From assembly GCF_000189755.2 (NCBI RefSeq), contig NZ_KI912183.1, positions 2,296,257-2,360,256 on the forward strand: a DNA stretch of 64,000 nucleotides. The letters are read 5' to 3'. A program made the translations under genes and the position numbers. This DNA is from Desulfotomaculum nigrificans DSM 574. GTDB lineage: Bacteria > Bacillota > Desulfotomaculia > Desulfotomaculales > Desulfotomaculaceae. Below, one piece after another: positions 8,987 through 63,752 of the stretch (positions are counted from its first letter, which is position 1; each line of letters begins with the position of its first letter). The notes under the pieces were generated by a model. The model had not been told where the DNA came from, made no database searches, and was given only the letters and a program-made list of their open reading frames with translations.

Positions 8987-11919
<2,933 letters not shown>

Positions 11920-40494: not shown

Positions 40495-40683
40495 ATGCAA
40501 GAAACGCCAAAATGTATTTTCTGCCGAACCACTTTGCCTCACAGTAATCAAGGCATTGTCATTTTAGGGCAATACATTTGTGCCAGTTGTGAACGCAAAA
40601 TAACCAACCTGGCCTGGGATGACCCTGATTATGAGGTTTATAAAAGCGGCCTTAAAAAAATTTGGTGTTGTAAAGAGGCCTGA
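40495..40683 (+). CDS. csfB: Sigma-G inhibitor Gin
   Basis: The 62-residue protein has two CxxC pairs, CIFCRTTLP and ICASCERKI, matching the zinc-binding Gin/CsfB family that prevents premature sigma-G activity in sporulation. Position before the yaaO-tmk-holB block is the same as csfB in B. subtilis. ATG 40495 follows GGAGGGATTGAG; a TTG at 40489 is a possible alternative. Its last 46 bases overlap the convergent gene on the other strand. Confidence 0.85.
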   Translation: MQETPKCIFCRTTLPHSNQGIVILGQYICASCERKITNLAWDDPDYEVYKSGLKKIWCCKEA

Positions 40684-52498: not shown

Positions 52499-53395
52499 AT
52501 GCTAAATTGTATAAAGGGGGTAACAGCTATAAGTAATTGTAATAACTTTCAAAAAATGTGGCATGAAGTGGCCTGTCGGCTCCTCTTAGGGGTACTTGTG
52601 GCTGGAGTAGTGTTCCTGCTGGGATGTATGGTATGGGGAAAAAATGTAACCGTTATAGCAGACGGTCGCGTATACCCGCTGCTCCAATTTCAAGGCACTG
52701 TGGCGGATTCTCTGGATAAAGCCAACGTAACTTTAAGGAGAGCCGATATCGTTAATGCACCGTTAAATTCCCCGGTGGTGGATGGACAACGGATCAGAGT
52801 AGCAAGGGTGGAAGAAAAGATATTGATCAGTGACCAAATGGTCAAATTTCAAACCGAAAAAAGATGGGACCCCGGGCTATACCCCGGGCAACAAAAGGTA
52901 GTGCAAAAGGGCACCTGTGGGTTGACCAGGAACTATATACGGGTTATTTATCATGACGGGCAAGAAGTAAAAAGGGAGACCATAAAAAAAGAAATGGTTA
53001 GAAAGTCCCGGCCGTTAATTTTAGCCTACGGGGCCAGAGTAACCGTGTCCCGGGGGCAAGTGCGCCCGTCGCGGGCCTATGCCACCAGGGCAGCCGAGGC
53101 TGCTGCATTGGCCCAACCAATTGGTAATGGGCGGGTGGTAACTGCCGTGGCCACCGCCTATACCCACACAGGTAATCGAACAGCCACCGGTATCCGACCC
53201 TATGTGGGGGTAGTGGCGGTGGATCCAAGGGTAATACCCCTGGGAACCAAACTTTATGTCGAAGGATATGGTCCGGCTATAGCAGCGGATACAGGAGGCG
53301 ACATAGAAGGTAATCGGATCGATGTTTTCTTTGATAGCCGTCAGCAGGCTATGAATTGGGGCAGGCGGCAGGTTAAGGTGCATATTTTAAAATAA
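52499..53395 (+). CDS. YabE-like cell-wall protein (DUF348, G5, 3D domains)
   Basis: The protein has an N-terminal membrane anchor (RLLLGVLVAGVVFLLGCMVW), a DUF348 beta-grasp (TVIADGRVYPLLQFQG), a G5 domain (PGQQKVVQKGTCGLTRNYIR) and a C-terminal 3D domain. The last carries AVDPRVIPLGTKLYVEGYG and the catalytic-type Asp pair region AADTGGDIEGNRIDVFF, as in MltA/YabE/Rpf-like muralytic proteins. The start is uncertain: AAAGGGGG at 52516 points to ATA 52529, while ATG 52499 and ATG 52556 lack good sites. It follows the SPOCS gene divergently. Confidence 0.82.
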   Translation: MLNCIKGVTAISNCNNFQKMWHEVACRLLLGVLVAGVVFLLGCMVWGKNVTVIADGRVYPLLQFQGTVADSLDKANVTLRRADIVNAPLNSPVVDGQRIRVARVEEKILISDQMVKFQTEKRWDPGLYPGQQKVVQKGTCGLTRNYIRVIYHDGQEVKRETIKKEMVRKSRPLILAYGARVTVSRGQVRPSRAYATRAAEAAALAQPIGNGRVVTAVATAYTHTGNRTATGIRPYVGVVAVDPRVIPLGTKLYVEGYGPAIAADTGGDIEGNRIDVFFDSRQQAMNWGRRQVKVHILK

Positions 53396-53557
53396 AGGTG
53401 CCATACAGCTGGTGAAGGACGGCAAATTATTTGCCGTCCTCTGTTGCTTTCTCTGAGAATTTGTATGAATTTTTGAGAAGGATAGCCCTGCCAAGAGAAG
53501 GAATATACAGTACAGGAAATTTAAGGAAGAATGGACATGGTAAAGGAGGGCTTAACT

Positions 53558-54328
53558 ATGGATTGGTGTACCGTAGAGTGGCCACCCCGCCCACGGCCAA
53601 ATTTAAATACCCGGAGGCAAAAACAACAGTCCGGTAAAAAAGCTGCTACAGCCGGTCTATTAGGCCTTGGTATGGTTATTATCTTGGTAGGTGTGGTTTT
53701 AGGTTATGCCGTATGGTCTAAAAAGTTAACCATACCTGCTACTTTTTCTGATACCGGGGAATTGCTCAGAGAATTCATATCCGGCCGAATACCGGTGACA
53801 GTCACAGTGGACGGTGAGACCCGACACCTGCAAATAAAGGGTAAAACTGTGCAAGATGTTCTGACCCAACAAGGGATTAAGTTAAAGCCCCGGGATCAAG
53901 TACTCCCTTCCTTGTCCACACCGGTAAAAAGAAATATGTCAATTAAAGTGATTCGGGTGGAGGAAAAAGAGGAAATAAAGCAGGCGGCAGTACCTTTTCC
54001 CAGTAAACAAACACCAAGAACCCGGACGGTCATTAGCCGTGGGGGGCAGCAACTCCGGTTTACCCGGACCATGGAAATGACTGCCACCGGGTACACCTAC
54101 ACCGGTAACAACACCGCCTCCGGAGTGAAACCGGGCCCGGGGGTGGCAGCGGTTGACCCGAGGGTAATTCCCCTGGGTACCAGATTATACATTGATGGTT
54201 ACGGTAACGCCGTTGCCCTGGATACGGGGAGCTTAATTAAGGGCAACCGGATTGACTTATTTTACGAAACGGAGGCACAGGCCATCAAATGGGGAGTTAG
54301 AAAAACTAAAGTTTATGTTTTGGAGTAG
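53558..54328 (+). CDS. YabE-like protein (DUF348 and 3D domains)
   Basis: The 256-residue protein is a paralogue of the preceding gene. It has a membrane segment (LLGLGMVIILVGVVLGYAVW), one DUF348 domain (VTVTVDGETRHLQIKGKTVQ) and a 3D domain with AVDPRVIPLGTRLYIDGYG and ALDTGSLIKGNRIDLFY. No G5 domain lies between them; a short basic linker is found instead. ATG 53558 is preceded by AAAGGAGG at about nine bases. Peptidoglycan cleavage is inferred from the 3D domain. Confidence 0.85.
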   Translation: MDWCTVEWPPRPRPNLNTRRQKQQSGKKAATAGLLGLGMVIILVGVVLGYAVWSKKLTIPATFSDTGELLREFISGRIPVTVTVDGETRHLQIKGKTVQDVLTQQGIKLKPRDQVLPSLSTPVKRNMSIKVIRVEEKEEIKQAAVPFPSKQTPRTRTVISRGGQQLRFTRTMEMTATGYTYTGNNTASGVKPGPGVAAVDPRVIPLGTRLYIDGYGNAVALDTGSLIKGNRIDLFYETEAQAIKWGVRKTKVYVLE

Positions 54329-54526: not shown

Positions 54527-54555
54527 TTGACTTCCGGCAGGATAAAAACTATATT
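54527..54555 (+). promoter_or_regulatory. Promoter of the GntR regulator gene
   Basis: TTGACT (54527-54532), a 17-base spacer and TATATT (54550-54555). Confidence 0.75.
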
Positions 54556-54572
54556 TGTGAACAACAACACTT

Positions 54573-54593
54573 AACTGGTACACATGTCATTAT
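54573..54593. promoter_or_regulatory. Operator-like site 1 (upstream of gntR)
   Basis: AACTGGTACACATGTCATTA begins 17 bases after the -10 box. The same pattern, AACTGGTAC-n-n-A-n-GT-n-AT, recurs after the second promoter at 55421. A repressor bound here would block early transcription, so autoregulation is likely. Confidence 0.6.
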
Positions 54594-54616
54594 CAGTTGT
54601 TAAGGAGGAATATATC

Positions 54617-55345
54617 ATGGCTTCGTTAGATGTTCGCAACCCCATCCCATTACATGTACAATTAAAAGAAATACTAAGAAAAGAAATTGAAAAAGGACAT
54701 TATACTGAGAAAATTCCTAGTGAGAGAGAGTTAATGGACCAGTTTTCCGTAAGTCGTACAACTGTACGGGAAGCGGTTTCTGCCTTGGTGCGGGAAGGAG
54801 TTTTAGAAAAGATTCATGGGAAGGGAACCTTTATTACTAACCATCAGGTTAATGAATGGTTGGGTAATATAAGAGGTTTTAGTGAGACTATAGAGAGTAT
54901 GGGAATGAAACCCGGCATTCAATTACTGTCTCATGGGATTAACTCTAATTCTGAAATAGGCAACATGCTTGGTGTTAAGGAGTATTACTTTATCGAAAGA
55001 TTGCGTTTTGCCAATGATGAACCAATTGCTATTGAAAGAACATATTACCCTGTAGAGGTTGGCCTTAAATTGGCCGAACATGACTTGAATAAGGTAGCCT
55101 TATATTCGCTGCTTGAATCCAGTGGAATTATTCTTTACGAGGCCGAACAAAAGATTACCGTAGCAATGCCAAGCGAGGAAGATGCCAAGTTACTAGGAAT
55201 TTCCCCTGGCACCAGTGTCTTGGCAGCTGAAAGGCTTACCTCCGATCCCCGGGGCAATACGGTTGAGTATTACTACAGCACATTTCGGGCGGATAAATAT
55301 GCTTTTTGTATCAAGCTTTCCAGAATGGGCTCCAGGACTTTGTGA
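54617..55345 (+). CDS. GntR/HutC-family transcriptional regulator
   Basis: The 242-residue protein has a GntR winged helix (IPSERELMDQFSVSRTTVRE and AVSALVREGVLEKIHGKGTF, about residues 32-75) and a C-terminal UTRA ligand-binding domain (residues 95-235, FIERLRFANDEPIAIERTYY). AAGGAGG lies eight bases before ATG 54617; an ATG at 54584 lacks such a site. It precedes the MFS-SDR-glycyl radical cluster, and both the regulator gene and that cluster carry the same operator-like sequence. The ligand is inferred to be the cluster's substrate or a breakdown product. Confidence 0.9.
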   Translation: MASLDVRNPIPLHVQLKEILRKEIEKGHYTEKIPSERELMDQFSVSRTTVREAVSALVREGVLEKIHGKGTFITNHQVNEWLGNIRGFSETIESMGMKPGIQLLSHGINSNSEIGNMLGVKEYYFIERLRFANDEPIAIERTYYPVEVGLKLAEHDLNKVALYSLLESSGIILYEAEQKITVAMPSEEDAKLLGISPGTSVLAAERLTSDPRGNTVEYYYSTFRADKYAFCIKLSRMGSRTL

Positions 55346-55380
55346 AGGTAGTCCTTTTTTTTATTTTTTTAGTCATCTAG

Positions 55381-55409
55381 TTGACAAATATTTTGACAAA
55401 TTATACAAT
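55381..55409 (+). promoter_or_regulatory. Promoter of the glycyl radical cluster
   Basis: TTGACA (55381-55386), a 17-base spacer and TACAAT (55404-55409). A second TTGACA at 55393 has no good -10 partner. Confidence 0.75.
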
Positions 55410-55420
55410 GTGAACAAGAT

Positions 55421-55442
55421 AACTGGTACGGACGTGATAATG
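55421..55442. promoter_or_regulatory. Operator-like site 2 (upstream of the MFS gene)
   Basis: AACTGGTACGGACGTGATAA lies 11 bases after the -10 box and matches site 1 at about 16 of 21 positions, including all of AACTGGTAC. Confidence 0.6.
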
Positions 55443-55528
55443 TAATTACGTCAAGATGTAGCAATATACAGGCTAATTTAGCTAGTAAAAAAGAACCACC
55501 ATAATATATTTTTTTGGAGGTGTTGCGG

Positions 55529-55639
55529 TTGTGTTCACATGAACAATATACGGTAAGTGACTGTACATGGGTATTATGGGGTCACATACCAGGAGGTGGT
55601 AGACCAAAGGACCGTCAGGCTTTTCATAAAAGAATATAA
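55529..55639 (+). CDS. Possible 36-residue leader peptide rich in Cys, His and Trp
   Basis: After GGAGGTG (55517-55523), a TTG start at 55529 opens a frame of 36 codons reading LCSHEQYTVSDCTWVLWGHI and ending in GGGRPKDRQAFHKRI. It contains two Cys and three His. I do not recognise it. It lies in a 574-nt leader between the cluster promoter and the MFS gene. The rest of this 638-bp gap (55640-55983) shows no supported gene; a 66-codon open frame on the minus strand lacks a ribosome site. Confidence 0.35.
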   Translation: MCSHEQYTVSDCTWVLWGHIPGGGRPKDRQAFHKRI

Positions 55640-55983
55640 AGATATTTTGTATTATCGGAGCCGGGATTAATCAGATTGAATAACATCCATAAGGGCACAG
55701 ACCCAGCATAGGAGCATGACTAACATCTACCTCATGGGCAGGCAGAACGAAGGAATTTAGGGCTATGACCTGTGAGAAATGGGAGGATACGCCGCCGGAG
55801 AGTATGTGGATTCCAATGGCCACAATAACTTGAAAAGGACGCAGTTTTATTGTATACACATTCACATCCATAATAATACATTAATGTAAAACTTGCTCAT
55901 AAAGCTTGTTCTTGAAAATGTGAAAATCTAAGATCCAGCGAGATATCTTTAGAAAATGCAAGATTATAGAGGGAGGAGAGGTT

Positions 55984-57420
55984 ATGACAAAAGGCTTGTC
56001 CAGGCGTGAAGAGGTAAATTTATTGTCAAGGTTAGATCGGATTCCTATCACCGGGACAATTATCCGGATAATGACACTTTTAGTTTTAGCATGGATTATT
56101 GAAGCTTTTGATATTGGGATTGTAGGTCAGACCGTACTGGTGTTAAAAAAAATCTGGCACCTGAGTCCCAGTGATGTTGGTCTTTTAGGTACATCTTCAA
56201 CTTTAGGTATTGTAATTGGTGTGTATTTTGCCGGCCGGTTAATGGATAAATTCGGTCGCAAGAAAGTTCTTGTTTGGGGTGTTGCTTGGTTTGCGTTTTT
56301 TACCGGTATAGGCGCTCTTTTTGCTAACCTCTACTGGGTAGTTGCCATGAGATTTATTGCCGGCCTGGGTGAAGGTGCTGTATTCCCCATTCCGTACTTA
56401 TTAATTTCTGAATTTGTAGGGGCTAAAAGACGGGGTACTATAGTGAGTTGGCAAAACGCTATATTGTGTGCGGCTTACGTGTTACCAAGTATTGTAGGCG
56501 CTTGGGCCTTAACAAGTTTTACCCTCGATGTTGCTTGGCGGATTCCCTTCATCATTGGAGCGTTTCCCATCTTCTACGTAATTGCTTTGGCCTTATGGTT
56601 ACCTGAGTCTCCCCGCTGGCTGTTACAACAAGGTCGAATTGAAGAAGTTAAGAAATTGGTTGCTAAACTGGAAAATGAAGCAGGGCTGGATCACGATGAG
56701 AATTTAATCAATCCCAGCATCGAAAGATCTATATCCGGTCAGACCGAAGAGAAGAAACATGCCGGTATAGCCATGCTCTTTAAGAAGCCTTACCTGTCAC
56801 GTAGTTTAGTTTCCTGGGGGTTATATACAGGTACCATGATTTGTTGGTACGCCATGCTAGTTTATGCTCCTACCATTTTCGCCGCCAAGGGCTTTGAAAT
56901 GAAGAACGCGGTTCTGTTTACCGGTACGATGATGGTAATTGGTGGTCTTGGCGAAGTTGTTATTGGTTACCTCTCAGATGCCTACGGTCGTAAACCCGTA
57001 TATCTGATTTTCAGTGTCTTCTCAGCAGTTGGTATGATTGCCTTGGCGCAAGTAAATTCCTTAACAGGTTTGTTTATCGGAGGATTTATTGCTGCATTCT
57101 TTGGTTTCGGTACATTACCAATGGCTAAGATTTATATTGCTGAGCAATATCCTACCTACTTACGTGGAGCCGGCAGTGGTGTTGGGGAAGCTGTAGCCAG
57201 GTTGTTGGGTGGCGTATTGGTATCCTACTATATCTCCTTTATTCTTGCCGCAGGTGGCGTGAAGGCTGTGTTCTGGTTCGTGGCGGCTGCCTTTATCTTC
57301 TTCGCCATCCCGCTAATGATCTGGGGCCAAGAAACAGCCGGGTTAAGCGTGGAAGAGACTGGTTCCTCCTTACAAAAGGATGATATGGTAAAAGAAAAAA
57401 TGGTTAAAGTTGAAGCTTAG
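55984..57420 (+). CDS. MFS transporter of the glycyl radical cluster
   Basis: The 478-residue protein has about twelve membrane segments. The MFS loop motif GRLMDKFGRKKV occurs after segment 2 (near residue 83) and its second-half counterpart GYLSDAYGRKPV near residue 324. The central loop is charged (residues 220-255). It resembles the sugar-porter/AAHS-like carriers that take up organic anions. GGGAGGAGAGG precedes the ATG. As first gene of the cluster it probably imports the substrate, which I infer to be a small organosulfonate. Confidence 0.88.
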   Translation: MTKGLSRREEVNLLSRLDRIPITGTIIRIMTLLVLAWIIEAFDIGIVGQTVLVLKKIWHLSPSDVGLLGTSSTLGIVIGVYFAGRLMDKFGRKKVLVWGVAWFAFFTGIGALFANLYWVVAMRFIAGLGEGAVFPIPYLLISEFVGAKRRGTIVSWQNAILCAAYVLPSIVGAWALTSFTLDVAWRIPFIIGAFPIFYVIALALWLPESPRWLLQQGRIEEVKKLVAKLENEAGLDHDENLINPSIERSISGQTEEKKHAGIAMLFKKPYLSRSLVSWGLYTGTMICWYAMLVYAPTIFAAKGFEMKNAVLFTGTMMVIGGLGEVVIGYLSDAYGRKPVYLIFSVFSAVGMIALAQVNSLTGLFIGGFIAAFFGFGTLPMAKIYIAEQYPTYLRGAGSGVGEAVARLLGGVLVSYYISFILAAGGVKAVFWFVAAAFIFFAIPLMIWGQETAGLSVEETGSSLQKDDMVKEKMVKVEA

Positions 57421-57463: not shown

Positions 57464-58300
57464 ATGAAGCTTAAAGATAAAGTTGCCCTGGTTACCGGTG
57501 GCACGGCCGGGCTGGGCCGGGGTATTGCACTGGCCTTTGCTCGGGAGGGAGCCAAGGTAGCCATCTGTGGTAGAAATGAGGAGAGACTGAACAAAGTAGC
57601 CCAAGAAATAGAAGAACTGGGGGTTGAGGCTTTAGCCATTAAAGTTGATGTGGCCTCCAGTCAGGAAGTAAAAGAAATGTTTGCCAAGATTGTGGAGAAG
57701 TTTGGCACCCTGGATATCCTCGTAAACAATGCCGGTATTTTCAGGTCTGACCCGGCCGGGGTAGCAGACAGAGCCAAACACCTGGATTTGGTGACCACAC
57801 CGATTCCTCGACAATCATTGCAAATCACCAGAAATATGAGTGATGAGAATTGGAAAAAAATGTTTGATGTAAACGTACACGGGCTGTTCTACTGCACCCG
57901 AGAAGCCCTCAACATTATGGAGGATAAGGGTTACGGTAAAATTATCAACATAGCATCTATTTCCGGTATCTCGGCCATTAGCTGCCATAGTCCCAATTAC
58001 TCCGCAGCCAAGGGAGCGGTGGTAGCCTTCACCAGGTCGGTGGCCTATGAAGTGGCCGGGGCCGGGGTTTGCGTGAACTGCATAGCCCCCGGTTACATTG
58101 ATACAGATGAATTTATGCGTGGTATTAACTCCATGAGCCCTGAGAGAAGAGCCCGTTTCATGCAGCTTATGCCGGTGGGCCGGATAGGTAAGGTTGAAGA
58201 ATATGCTTCGTTAGCTGTTTACCTGGCTTCAGACGATGCTAACTATATGATCGGCCAGGTAATAAGCCCTAACGGTGGTCTGGTTATTGCAGCGAATTAA
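57464..58300 (+). CDS. Short-chain dehydrogenase/reductase of the cluster
   Basis: The 278-residue protein has the classical SDR motifs: TGGTAGLGRG at residues 11-20, NNAG at 88-91, and the catalytic Tyr179 and Lys183 in YSAAK. The Arg at 37 (CGRNEERL) after the second strand suggests NADP(H). An insertion of about 30 residues (93-125) follows NNAG and may shape the substrate pocket. It lies between transporter and lyase. It could reduce the carbonyl product of the lyase or oxidise/epimerise a hydroxysulfonate (compare HpsO); the sequence does not decide. Confidence 0.85.
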   Translation: MKLKDKVALVTGGTAGLGRGIALAFAREGAKVAICGRNEERLNKVAQEIEELGVEALAIKVDVASSQEVKEMFAKIVEKFGTLDILVNNAGIFRSDPAGVADRAKHLDLVTTPIPRQSLQITRNMSDENWKKMFDVNVHGLFYCTREALNIMEDKGYGKIINIASISGISAISCHSPNYSAAKGAVVAFTRSVAYEVAGAGVCVNCIAPGYIDTDEFMRGINSMSPERRARFMQLMPVGRIGKVEEYASLAVYLASDDANYMIGQVISPNGGLVIAAN

Positions 58301-58356: not shown

Positions 58357-60843
58357 ATGTCTTGTTGTACAGTATTAACACCTCAAGAAGAAAGAATTCT
58401 TAATGAGCAGGCTGGACAAAACCAGGAGAAATTTAAAAAAGGTAGAGAGAGAGTTTATAATATCCTGGAAAGCTTTAAGGGTACTCCGCCGCGTATTAGT
58501 CTGGACAGAGCCCGCCTGATGACAGAATCATTTAAAGAAACCGAAGGCCAACCACTGATCCTTAGATGGGCCAAAGCATTGAAACATATCGTAGAAAACA
58601 TTCCTGTGTATATTGGTGAATACGATATTGTTGTTGGCCGGGCGGACGGTCATCCGGGCAGACATGGTCTAATTTACCCCGAGCTGGACGGTGCTTTCTT
58701 AGACAAAGCAGTGAATATGCTCACCAAAGGTAAAACGCCTTATATTGTAACTGAGGAAGATATAAAAGCCATCAGAGAAGAAATTGTACCCTACTGGAAG
58801 GGTAAGACCTTGCACGAACTCTTTGCAGCCGCTCTACCCGAAGACACCAGGAATTTAATCTTTAATAAAGATGATATTTTCTATCAAAGATATGTTGTTA
58901 CGCAAACAGCCACTATCCGCAGCTCCTTACAGTGGGTACATGATTATGAGAAAGTCTTAAAGAGAGGCTTCAAGGATATTAAAAGAGAAGCTGAAGAAAG
59001 ATTAGCAGCCCTTGATCCAATTAATCCCAAAGATAACGTAGAGAAGAAACCTTTCCTGGAGGCAGCAGTTCTGGTATGTGATGCGGTAATCACCTTCGCC
59101 AGGAGATATGCCCAGTTAGCTGCCAGTATGGCTGAGCAGGAAACCAATGAGCATAGGAAAAATGAGTTGTTAGAAATAGCCAGAATTTGCCAATGCGTGC
59201 CGGAAAACCCTGCCAGAACCTTCCATGAAGCTGTGCAATCCGTATGGTTAACCCAGGTGGTTTCCAGATTAGAACAAAACATCGGTGCGGTAGTTGGCAA
59301 TGGCCGGATGGATCAATATTTCTATCCTTACTATAAGAAAGATATAGAAGAAGGACGCATCACGGAAGAGTATGCTCTGGAATTACTGGAATCTCTGTGG
59401 GTAAATATGGCCCAATTCATCAACTTAAAAGTTTCCCCGGCCGGTGCTGCCTTTACCGAGGGTTACTCCCACTGGGAGGCTTTGACCATCGGCGGTAAGA
59501 CCCGGGACGGTCGGGATGCTACTAACGAGCTATCTTACTTAATTTTGAGGTCTAAACGGGAATTCCCCTTAAACTATCCTGACCTGGCGGCAAGAATCCA
59601 TGCTCAAAGTCCGGAAAAATTTATTCACGAAGTAAGTGAGACAATTAAAGAAGGGTCCGGTTTCCCCAAACTGATGAACGATGAGGAAATCATCCCGTTA
59701 CTTTTGGCTAAAGGGGCACCACTTGAAGAAGCCAATGACTATTGCGCCTCTGGTTGTAGTGAAGTCAGAATGGTGAACCGGGATACCTATACCAGTCCCT
59801 GTGCTTGGGTAAACCTGGGTGCCATACTGGAAATGGCACTAAATGACGGTAAAATAAAAGCCTTCAATAATGAGCAAATAGGTCCACAAACAGGGGATCC
59901 TAGGAACTTCACCACCTTTGAAGAATTGTGGGATGCTTACTGCAAGCAACAAGAATTTGTTCTGAAACATGTATTTATACAACAGTACGTGGCTGATACA
60001 TTAAGGCCCAAGCACCTGGCATCTCCGCTGGCTTCCGTACTCCACGACCTGTGCATGAAGGAGTGCAAGGATCTGCAGTCAGGTGATATACCGGGTGGCA
60101 TTAACTTAGGATTTTATGATATGCTTGGTTTTGGTACTGTGGTTGATTCACTGGCAGCCATTAAGAAACTGGTCTTTGACGACAAGAAAATCACCATGAG
60201 TGAACTGCTGGAAGCCTTGGATGCCAACTTTGAAGGCAAGGAAGTAATTAGACAACTTTTAATCAATGCTCCCAAATACGGCAATAACGATATGTATGCT
60301 GACTCCATCGGACGGGACATTGAAGCTCATGCCATTGGCTTCTCCAAGAAGTATCCCACCGCATTTGGCGGCGAATTAGACGTGAGAATGGTTCCGGTGA
60401 CGGCCCATATTCCTTTAGGTAAAATAGTCGGTGCTACTCCAAACGGCAGAAAAGCCGGCATGCCTCTGGCTGACGGTGGTGGACCATCCCATGGTGCTGA
60501 TACCAGGGGCCCCAGTGCAACCCTGATTTCCATCGCTAACACTAAGAATATGGGTGAAAAAGAACGGGCTGCCAGATTAGTGAACCTGAAACTTAGTCCT
60601 TCAACGGTGGCTGGCGAAGAAGGAACAAGGAAACTAATGTCCTTAATTCGAACATTCTGCGACTTAAAGCTATGGCACCTGCAGTTTAACGTAATCAACC
60701 GTGAGACATTACTGGCTGCGCAAAAAGACCCTGAGAAATATCGTAATTTATTAGTACGGGTTGCTGGATATAGTGCTTATTTCGTTGATCTTTCAACTGA
60801 ACTACAAAACGAAATTATTGCCAGAACTGAGCACAGCTTCTAA
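58357..60843 (+). CDS. Glycyl radical enzyme, probable sulfonate C-S lyase (IslA/HpsG-like)
   Basis: The 828-residue protein is a glycyl radical enzyme: thiyl Cys467 and base Glu469 are in SGCSEVR, and radical Gly804 is in RVAGYSAYF. Counting places Arg188 and Gln192 in TIRSSLQW, Trp373 in SHWEAL, and Arg677 in LDVRMVP. I recall Arg189, Gln193, Trp374, Cys468, Glu470 and Arg678 as the isethionate sulfite-lyase residues, so all match at minus one. Residue 681 is Val where I recall Phe682 in IslA, which could admit a larger substrate such as dihydroxypropanesulfonate. The choline-lyase and glycerol-dehydratase classes fit less well in length and numbering. The expected product is sulfite plus an aldehyde or ketone. 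Confidence 0.85.
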   Translation: MSCCTVLTPQEERILNEQAGQNQEKFKKGRERVYNILESFKGTPPRISLDRARLMTESFKETEGQPLILRWAKALKHIVENIPVYIGEYDIVVGRADGHPGRHGLIYPELDGAFLDKAVNMLTKGKTPYIVTEEDIKAIREEIVPYWKGKTLHELFAAALPEDTRNLIFNKDDIFYQRYVVTQTATIRSSLQWVHDYEKVLKRGFKDIKREAEERLAALDPINPKDNVEKKPFLEAAVLVCDAVITFARRYAQLAASMAEQETNEHRKNELLEIARICQCVPENPARTFHEAVQSVWLTQVVSRLEQNIGAVVGNGRMDQYFYPYYKKDIEEGRITEEYALELLESLWVNMAQFINLKVSPAGAAFTEGYSHWEALTIGGKTRDGRDATNELSYLILRSKREFPLNYPDLAARIHAQSPEKFIHEVSETIKEGSGFPKLMNDEEIIPLLLAKGAPLEEANDYCASGCSEVRMVNRDTYTSPCAWVNLGAILEMALNDGKIKAFNNEQIGPQTGDPRNFTTFEELWDAYCKQQEFVLKHVFIQQYVADTLRPKHLASPLASVLHDLCMKECKDLQSGDIPGGINLGFYDMLGFGTVVDSLAAIKKLVFDDKKITMSELLEALDANFEGKEVIRQLLINAPKYGNNDMYADSIGRDIEAHAIGFSKKYPTAFGGELDVRMVPVTAHIPLGKIVGATPNGRKAGMPLADGGGPSHGADTRGPSATLISIANTKNMGEKERAARLVNLKLSPSTVAGEEGTRKLMSLIRTFCDLKLWHLQFNVINRETLLAAQKDPEKYRNLLVRVAGYSAYFVDLSTELQNEIIARTEHSF

Positions 60844-60962: not shown

Positions 60963-61898
60963 TTGAAAATGAACCATGAACTTGTAAAGAAAGATGCAGG
61001 GCTTGTTTTTAACATTCAACAATTTTCGGTTCATGACGGCCCGGGCATAAGGACCATTGTATTTTTGAAAGGTTGTCCTCTAAGGTGTCAGTGGTGTGCC
61101 AACCCTGAATCACAGCATCATTTTCCGGAACTGGCATATAACCATAATAAATGTATCGGCACCCATGAATGTCAGATATGTAAACAAGTTTGCACCGCCG
61201 GGGCTATCAAAGAGGGAGAAAACGATAAGGTCAAAATTGATCGTAGTCAGTGCACAAATTGCGGTGAATGTGCTGAAATCTGCCCATCTAAGGCCTTAGA
61301 AGTTTTCGGAAAGTACATGAGTGTAGAAGAAGTCTTAAAAATTGTAGAGGAAGACAGCATTTTTTATGCCAGGTCAGGTGGCGGGTTAACCTTAAGTGGG
61401 GGAGAACCTCTTTTACAGGCTGAATTTGTTTACAAGTTGCTTAAGGAAGCCAAGGAGAGGGGGATGGATACCGCCATTGAAACCTGTGGTTATGTTGATT
61501 GGAAAAAAGCAGAGCCGGTTTTTAAATATCTTAATACTGTGTTTTTTGATATCAAATGCGTGGATGGAAACAAGCATAAACAATTTACCGGGTTGTCTAA
61601 CGAGATAATATTATCAAACTTTATCAAGTTATGCCAACTATACCCGAAAACTCCTATTATTGTTAGAACACCGGTAGTTCCGGGATTTAACGATACGGAA
61701 GAGGATATATTTGCTATTGCAAATTTTATAAAAGGAATTCCCCATGTCACATATGAACTTTTGCCTTACCACCGTTTTGGTGAATCTAAATACACTTATT
61801 TAGGAAAACAGTACCTGTTAACCGGGGTGGAAAAACCGGCAGAAGAACGGATGAAAGCCCTTAGAAGTATCGTCAGCTCGGTGTTAGGAAATGATTAG
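60963..61898 (+). CDS. Glycyl radical enzyme activase (radical SAM)
   Basis: This 311-residue enzyme generates the glycyl radical on its partner. The radical SAM motif gives Cys38, Cys42 and Cys45 in KGCPLRCQWCANPES. A ferredoxin-like insert with two clusters follows (CQICKQVC and CTNCGECAEIC), as in IslB, CutD and other large activases. GGGLTLSGGEPLLQ near residue 140 is the SAM-binding GGE motif. The start is TTG 60963 after GGGGGAG; ATG 60969 is possible. It lies 119 bp after the lyase. Confidence 0.95.
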   Translation: MKMNHELVKKDAGLVFNIQQFSVHDGPGIRTIVFLKGCPLRCQWCANPESQHHFPELAYNHNKCIGTHECQICKQVCTAGAIKEGENDKVKIDRSQCTNCGECAEICPSKALEVFGKYMSVEEVLKIVEEDSIFYARSGGGLTLSGGEPLLQAEFVYKLLKEAKERGMDTAIETCGYVDWKKAEPVFKYLNTVFFDIKCVDGNKHKQFTGLSNEIILSNFIKLCQLYPKTPIIVRTPVVPGFNDTEEDIFAIANFIKGIPHVTYELLPYHRFGESKYTYLGKQYLLTGVEKPAEERMKALRSIVSSVLGND

Positions 61899-62064: not shown

Positions 62065-63030
62065 ATGAGCAATATTTTGAAACATATCGAGAATAAACTG
62101 CTAAATGGGAAGTTGATTGACTTTGCAGAAGCACTGGAACTGTCTGAGGATAGGATTAAAAGTGAGGAATTATTTAGCCTGGCAGATCAGATATGCAAAA
62201 AATATATGGGGAATAAGGTTGATCTGTGTTCCATCATCAATGCAAAGTCGGGAGAGTGTTCTGAGAACTGCAAATACTGTGCCCAGTCCGGACATTACAA
62301 CACCGGGGTTCCAAGTTATCCGCTCATCGATATCCAGGAAGTATTGGCTTTAGCTAAAGAGAACGAAAGAAACGGCGTTCACAGGTTTTCCATTGTAACC
62401 AGTGGAAAAAGCCTGACCAACAATGATTTTGAAAAAGTTTTAGAAATGATTGCAGCGTTGCGGGTGGAGACAAATCTAAAGCTGTGTGCGTCTCTTGGTA
62501 GTATCTCCTTTGAACGGGCGTTACGTCTAAAAGAGGCAGGTCTTTCAATGTACCACCACAATATTGAAACATGCAAGGAATACTATGCAAACATCTGTGA
62601 CACCCATACCTATGATGACAGAATACATACCATCAAAAATGCAAAAAAGGCAGGGCTTGAAGTATGCTGCGGCGGTATTATTGGGATGGGCGAAAGTATG
62701 GAACAAAGGATAAAAATGGCCTTTGAAATCAGGGAGCTGGGTATTACTTCGATTCCTATCAATATCCTGAATCCCATTAAAGGGACACCCTTGGAACATG
62801 TTGAAAAAATTGAGCCGATGGAAATAGTAAGGACCGTTTCATTGTTCCGGTTAATTATACCCTATGCTTCTATTAGGTATGCCGGTGGAAGAAGTGCATT
62901 GGGAGAACTCCAGCAAAAGAGTTTCATGGCTGGCCTCAATGCATTGATGGTCGGGAACTACCTGACAACGGTAGGGAATACAATTCCAGATGACGTAAAA
63001 ATGATACAGGAAATTGGTCTGGAGGTATAG
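62065..63030 (+). CDS. bioB: Biotin synthase
   Basis: BioB inserts sulfur into dethiobiotin. The 321-residue radical SAM protein has the cluster Cys65, Cys69 and Cys72 in SGECSENCKYCAQSGHY. Family segments are YHHNIETCKEYYANICDTHT, CCGGIIGMGES and YAGGRSALGELQQKS, with the Arg ligand of the 2Fe-2S cluster. It is the first gene behind the BirA operator, and bioD follows after two bases. Confidence 0.97.
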   Translation: MSNILKHIENKLLNGKLIDFAEALELSEDRIKSEELFSLADQICKKYMGNKVDLCSIINAKSGECSENCKYCAQSGHYNTGVPSYPLIDIQEVLALAKENERNGVHRFSIVTSGKSLTNNDFEKVLEMIAALRVETNLKLCASLGSISFERALRLKEAGLSMYHHNIETCKEYYANICDTHTYDDRIHTIKNAKKAGLEVCCGGIIGMGESMEQRIKMAFEIRELGITSIPINILNPIKGTPLEHVEKIEPMEIVRTVSLFRLIIPYASIRYAGGRSALGELQQKSFMAGLNALMVGNYLTTVGNTIPDDVKMIQEIGLEV

Positions 63031-63032
63031 GC

Positions 63033-63752
63033 TTGGCAAGGGAAATATTTGTACTGGGTACAGATACAGATGTCGGGAAAACGGTGATATCGGCAGGCAT
63101 CATGTACAGGCTTCTGTTAAAAGGGTATAAGGCCTGCTATTTTAAGCCTGTTTCCAGTGGTGGAGCCTACATTGGGGGAGACTTCTATTCCTATGATGTA
63201 TCCTTTGTAAAAAACGTTTCGGGATTCCCTGAAGTGGAGGACAATATAAATCCCTTTCGATTTAGAACGCCGGTTTCACCACACCTGGCGTCCTCGCTTG
63301 AAAACAGGAAGATAAATATCAACGTGATATTGGATACATACAAAGAATTAAAAAAGAAATACGATTTCATCTTGGTGGAAGGGTGTGGAGGTCTTGCTGT
63401 TCCTTTAACAGATGAAGGATACATGCAGTACCAGCTGATCAAGGAACTTGGCCTGGGGTGTGTTTTGGTTTCTAAAACGACTCTAGGCACCATAAACCAT
63501 ACACTTTTGACATTAAAGTTTGCTGAAAACATTGGCATAAAGATCGAGGGTATACTTTTTAACGGTTACAATGGAAGCCGCTGGGAGGAAGACAATATCA
63601 AAACAATAAGAAAACTGGCGGATGTTGCTGTCCTCGGCATCATACCCAAAATGGAAGGAATTCATGTTGAAAACCTAAAAGCTGGAAATTTGAAAGCTGT
63701 TTTTGAGGAGTTAACATTTATCGAGGATTTAATTGCCGGAACAAAGGATTGA
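63033..63752 (+). CDS. bioD: ATP-dependent dethiobiotin synthetase
   Basis: BioD closes the ureido ring of dethiobiotin. The 239-residue protein has the P-loop LGTDTDVGKTVISAGIMYRL at residues 8-27 and VEGCGGLAVPLTDEGYMQYQ near residue 113, the second nucleotide and substrate region. The start is TTG 63033 with GGAGGT in the end of bioB. It is followed after six bases by bioF. Confidence 0.95.
   Translation: MAREIFVLGTDTDVGKTVISAGIMYRLLLKGYKACYFKPVSSGGAYIGGDFYSYDVSFVKNVSGFPEVEDNINPFRFRTPVSPHLASSLENRKININVILDTYKELKKKYDFILVEGCGGLAVPLTDEGYMQYQLIKELGLGCVLVSKTTLGTINHTLLTLKFAENIGIKIEGILFNGYNGSRWEEDNIKTIRKLADVAVLGIIPKMEGIHVENLKAGNLKAVFEELTFIEDLIAGTKD

Follow-up and report, generated by a model that had tools for sequence, protein, structure and literature searches.

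Genes and promoters at the locus

The window, which is the whole 64 kb stretch of DNA analysed here, contained a gntR gene followed by a transporter-SDR-hpsG-hpsH operon. The gntR gene (54617..55345, + strand) encoded a GntR/HutC-UTRA regulator of 242 aa, a proposed repressor. Pfam identified an N-terminal GntR winged helix-turn-helix (PF00392, 6e-18) and a C-terminal UTRA effector domain (PF07702, 1e-32). The operon began with an MFS transporter (55984..57420, +; Pfam MFS_1, 9e-46), which was probably used for sulfonate uptake. It was followed by a short-chain dehydrogenase (57464..58300, +) conserved in clusters L101-L105, an HpsG-type glycyl radical enzyme (58357..60843, +; NCBIfam NF048011, 1430 bits, cutoff 1000), and the HpsH activating enzyme, a radical SAM protein (60963..61898, +; NCBIfam NF048010, 489 bits, cutoff 430). 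Both equivalogs scored above their curated cutoffs, and DHPS cleavage by HpsG/HpsH was the predicted activity of the operon. The bioB and bioD genes lay directly after hpsH on the same strand (62065-63752). Upstream of gntR (52499-54328), two adjacent similar secreted proteins were observed, which were 3D-domain cell-wall-like by eye.

The gntR promoter was located at 54527..54555 (+, TTGACT - 17 - TATATT), and the operon promoter at 55381..55409 (+, TTGACA - 17 - TACAAT). A second conserved element, AGTCATCTAGTTGACA (55371..55386, +; consensus TGTCRNCTASTTGACA), lay over the -35 box of the latter. It was nearly palindromic and overlapped the -35 box of hpsG operon promoters, and the perfect consensus was found in the MFS promoters of G057, G070, G085, and G099. 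When this element was searched genome-wide with one mismatch allowed, the matches were not above the reversed control. Since perfect copies elsewhere in the class preceded HdrC/HdrB-like genes (L199, L200, L202; by eye), a second regulator may be involved at the -35 element. The leader that separates operator 2 from the MFS gene (55468-55983) was longer than 500 nt, compared with about 180-400 nt in relatives. It contained a possible small ORF near 55520, behind a good ribosome-binding site. A riboswitch or known RNA was considered for the 540-nt leader and rejected, with no Rfam match.

Two probable operator sites in the window

The pattern AACTGGTACRSAYGT occurred exactly twice in the window, at 54573 and 55421, both on the + strand. 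An earlier note on this DNA had claimed two matching operator-like sites at exactly these positions, and both were confirmed, as were the gaps of 17 bases (gntR) and 11 bases (cluster) that it gave between the -10 boxes and the sites. It was also right that the window holds no third copy; the next-best match, at 40574, carried 2 mismatches. The sites and their positions stood, but the extent of the element did not. It had been cut short, and the second site went on past AACTG as 8-bp units.

Operator 1 (54572..54597, +; TAACTGGTACACATGTCATTATCAG), predicted to be autoregulatory, was an exact pattern match and contained two in-register 8-bp units, GTACACAT GTCATTAT. The predicted operator 2 (55420..55467, +) consisted of TAACTG and five in-register 8-bp units at 55426-55465, GTACGGAC-GTGATAAT-GTAATTAC-GTCAAGAT-GTAGCAAT, with the array ending at about 55467. 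Both were recovered with a held-out scoring matrix (PWM) built solely from the sites of other genomes. Operator 2 scored 34.0 bits and operator 1 scored 22.9 bits, while the rest of the window reached at most 10.1 bits and resampled windows (n=10) peaked at 10.4 bits. Profile R1, with 30 training sites and none from the window, was then run on the whole 3.05 Mb genome. At E<=0.5 it returned operators 1 and 2 only, operator 2 as the best match (E = 5e-5) and operator 1 as the second of two (E = 0.10). A third operator in this genome was rejected, as the near matches at 2393499 (1.6 bits) and 2708345 (4.8 bits) were due to chance.

Among sites with a clear promoter, ACTGG usually started 5-13 nt past the -10 hexamer, that is, around the transcription start, which fits repression. 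In the window, the distances from the -10 hexamer to the A of ACTGG were 12 and 18. The start of gntR was most likely 54617, with AAGGAGG just 5' of it, rather than the ATG at 54584 inside operator 1.

Conservation of the motif with the regulator

Orthologs of the regulator with 48-79% identity were collected both among relatives and further afield in the phylum. The motif recurred near nearly all of them. Profile R1 gave matches of at least 17 bits in 15/15 genomes with an ortholog and in 0/85 others (100 relatives searched); by counting, such a coincidence would arise by chance about once in C(100,15). The 30 training sites came mostly from the ortholog-bearing genomes, so the fair tests were the two window sites and an untrained match in G085, located immediately 5' of the orthologous MFS gene (L173). 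The strict pattern CTGGTACNNAYGTNNNNAYGT gave 6 matches in 113 genomes, all at gntR/hpsG loci, and the reversed control pattern gave 0. In an unbiased count, ACTGGTACG was the top shared 9-mer near orthologs (13/23 regions, compared with at most 8 in resamples).

Failure of the motif to recur in orthologous clusters of related genomes had been set beforehand as a refutation of the earlier note. In the search, the motif proved strongly conserved alongside both the regulator and its targets. The proposal of a local repressor controlling itself and its target operon was also supported by this comparison, with sites at both the regulator's own promoter and the target in L101, L110, L111, L112, and L155. 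Sequence comparison showed that the sites exist and are conserved, where they lie relative to the promoters, that their cores recur in an 8-bp register, and that they are linked to the regulator.

The proposed operator as an array of 8-bp units

The HutC operator core is of the type GT-N4-AC. The aligned sites contained this core, with GT in 39/39, A at +10 in 39/39, and C or T at +11 in 38/39. GT was found at +4, +12, +20, and +28, with AY directly ahead of the later ones and a step of 8. On this alignment, the operator opens with ACTG and then repeats an 8-bp unit, GT-N4-AY, in a constant register. The matrix used for site selection ended at +22, and the unit at +26..+29 served as an independent test of the register. 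An in-register unit at +26 was present in 15/41 sites against a background of 1.7% (p~1e-16), and the test with a single site per locus gave a p value of 2e-9. A four-unit run occurred in 0/100 shuffles of the window (expected 0.00), and operator 2 reached five.

A diverged paralog, L153 (48% identity), carried a seven-unit array directly after its gntR gene (9838-9893), near an aspartate/glutamate racemase-like gene identified by eye. An array-type operator may also serve another pathway there. Arrays as a general HutC property were rejected, as 24/25 distant paralogs (26-36% identity) showed at most two units. L221 (36%) alone had three, and several had a single palindrome. Because nearly all 25 distant HutC paralogs were without it, the array is, by this comparison, a feature of this subfamily. 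Operator 1, the weaker site, had two units only, and the sites of several relatives had only one or two. This meant that the array was not always needed.

Predicted target genes in relatives

The genes behind the sites in relatives included gntR, the MFS-SDR-hpsG-hpsH operon, other hpsG-like genes, xsc, ackA, alanine dehydrogenase (ald), an aminotransferase, TRAP and ABC transporters, and a chemoreceptor. By NCBIfam/Pfam, HpsG, Xsc, AckA, alanine dehydrogenase, the aminotransferase, TRAP, and MFS were assigned as sulfonate targets. The MFS transporter orthologs behind the motif were 74-80% identical. The aminotransferase adjoined xsc and alanine dehydrogenase and was of the taurine-pyruvate type by context. 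The hpsG-like enzymes of L106 and L107 passed the HpsG model, and the IslA model was absent among the matches for the hpsG-like enzymes of L106-L108. The distribution of targets suggested that the regulator is tied to organosulfonate use in general, as an organosulfonate regulon. The earlier model stood; it had missed this wider sulfonate (taurine/Xsc) regulon and the 8-bp array architecture. An xsc gene in this genome was considered and rejected, since its matches were only 33-34% and probably acetolactate-synthase relatives. With no clear xsc, the regulator in this genome appears to control the hpsG branch only.

An operator-like site was also observed before a dCache chemoreceptor gene at 4826 of L115, with a matching one in L116, beside taurine-type genes. 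This protein is a candidate sulfonate chemoreceptor. In L151, an array without GG (2203-2230) stood before an MttB-family methyltransferase gene, near the G158 regulator ortholog and neighbouring aminotransferase-like and alcohol-dehydrogenase-like genes. It is possible that this locus serves an additional substrate of the regulon.

Protein residues matching the DNA and a possible effector

The regulator fold matched NagR, DasR, and PhnF, with NagR/YvoA and DasR as the nearest solved structures. In NagR, Arg38 and Arg48 read the two half-site Gs, and native dre-sites have GG on one side only (PMC4333415). The equivalents of Arg38, Arg48, and the wing Gly69 were conserved in the regulator. Across the orthologs, the Arg48 equivalent was invariant and position 38 was Arg or Lys in all but two. 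The exceptions were L151 (Met) and L153 (Leu), and both had arrays without GG. In these two orthologs, the G read by Arg38 was lost together with the Arg38 equivalent: protein and DNA covary.

The equivalents of the phosphate-holding NagR residues Arg133, Arg135, and Tyr167, with Glu145 nearby, were conserved nearly without exception. By analogy, the UTRA pocket could accept a sulfonate where NagR binds the phosphate of its ligand. NagR position 90 was Ser/Thr in hpsG-only loci and Asn in loci with taurine genes. L108, which has xsc and hpsG, had Asn, and L152, L154, and L156 had Thr. As a hypothesis based on few sequences, position 90 might set the choice of effector.

Discussion

We consider it likely that the GntR/HutC protein uses the two sites on either side of its gene as operators, and that control works by repression, array loading, and release by a sulfonate. 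Binding, repression, the effector, and the presence of several dimers at once are what we infer from the sequences. Each operator would open with a NagR/DasR-like half-site, ACTGGT, read via the Arg38/Arg48 equivalents, followed by GT-N4-AY cores that recur in register at 8-bp steps. When the substrate is absent, a dimeric repressor would occupy the first core, and neighbouring dimers would be aided by the next in-register cores. The bound repressor would cover the transcription start at both promoters, and its own gene and the MFS-SDR-hpsG-hpsH operon would be blocked. A sulfonate, DHPS or an intermediate, would then bind the UTRA domain at the Arg133/Arg135 anion site and cause release.

It is rather unlikely, although conceivable, that the operator is an ordinary single-dimer site, in which only ACTGGTACNNAY counts, with the remaining 8-bp units making weak or vestigial contacts that bring in no extra dimers. 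A GG half-site followed by a single-guanine half-site is the non-palindromic dre-site type of NagR, and the sites with just one or two units in operator 1 and several relatives would also agree with one dimer. However, the register persisted at +26 (p 1e-16), the window had five units and L153 seven, and the array stood alone without GG in L151 and L153. As for the array model, the crystal of the NagR DNA-binding domain with DNA contained a centre dimer and edge-bridging dimers along end-to-end stacked 15-mers (PMC4333415). By our reading this implies one dimer per about 7.5 bp, so that an 8-bp dimer array is sterically plausible for DNA-binding domains. Full-length dimers spaced 8 bp apart might clash. 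Since the arrays are asymmetric, a whole dimer at each unit is an assumption.

Activation instead of repression from these sites seems improbable. Growth of Bilophila/Desulfovibrio on isethionate requires a predicted regulator gene, islR (PMC6386719), and the Bilophila islA cluster contains a PAS-domain regulator (PMC8667426), which would agree with an activator. In contrast, the present sites lie 3' of -35/-10 boxes close to consensus, usually 5-13 nt past the -10, where a bound protein blocks RNA polymerase, and NagR, a HutC relative that has been characterised, acts as a repressor (PMC4333415). We regard it as more improbable still that the motif belongs to another, co-occurring regulator or forms an RNA element in the 5' leader. 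Most strong sites share one orientation and lie inside the predicted transcript, as such an element might. Nevertheless, motif and GntR ortholog presence agreed perfectly among 100 genomes, the motif matched the half-site of the closest relative with a solved structure, and GG was lost together with Arg38. In addition, there was no Rfam family, and the targets varied while regulator and motif stayed constant.

Turning back to the repressor with its array, we tentatively propose, with some doubt, that this HutC subfamily uses cooperative multi-dimer loading on an 8-bp register, of an origin separate from NanR, in which array length would set sharpness and position 90 the effector. If true, repeat-operator repression arose in GntR proteins separately from NanR. 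The 8-bp array bears on whether HutC repressors line up as neighbours on DNA, as was hinted by the NagR-domain crystal. Sulfite-respiring anaerobes feed on organosulfonates, DHPS and taurine among them, with hydrogen sulfide as a product. In the open literature searched, no regulator of these pathways was found described for Desulfotomaculum-type Firmicutes. The motif can be used as an annotation tool for sulfonate genes, including uptake, chemoreceptor, and unknown enzymes, via regulon membership.

Comparison with known systems

No paper on this regulator was found in the open literature searched. The sulfonate clusters of Bilophila and Desulfovibrio, with IslR, are similar in that glycyl radical sulfonate lyase genes are regulated. 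They differ in that a PAS-domain regulator adjoins islA, islR is required, and no GntR is reported there. The window regulator resembles NagR/YvoA of Bacillus subtilis and DasR of Streptomyces, the GntR/HutC proteins of dre-sites, in its GntR and UTRA domains, in the half-site TGGT with a non-palindromic second half, and in the equivalents of the DNA residues Arg38, Arg48, and Gly69 and the anion residues Arg133, Arg135, Glu145, and Tyr167. Unlike NagR/DasR, its targets are sulfonate genes and not aminosugar genes, its operator runs up to five 8-bp units, and the identity is about 33%.

NanR belongs to the FadR-type GntR subfamily. Like the GntR-superfamily repressor NanR, the window protein, itself a proposed repressor of this superfamily, goes with closely spaced tandem operator repeats, here in a fixed 8-bp register. 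In E. coli NanR, three dimers bind cooperatively to a (GGTATA)3 tandem operator, a 32-residue N-terminal extension is required for cooperativity, and the mechanism was termed unique among reported GntR regulators by its authors (PMC8012715). In contrast, the window protein begins MASLDVRNPIPLH, in register with NagR and with no N-terminal extension, its effector domain is UTRA, and its repeat unit differs.
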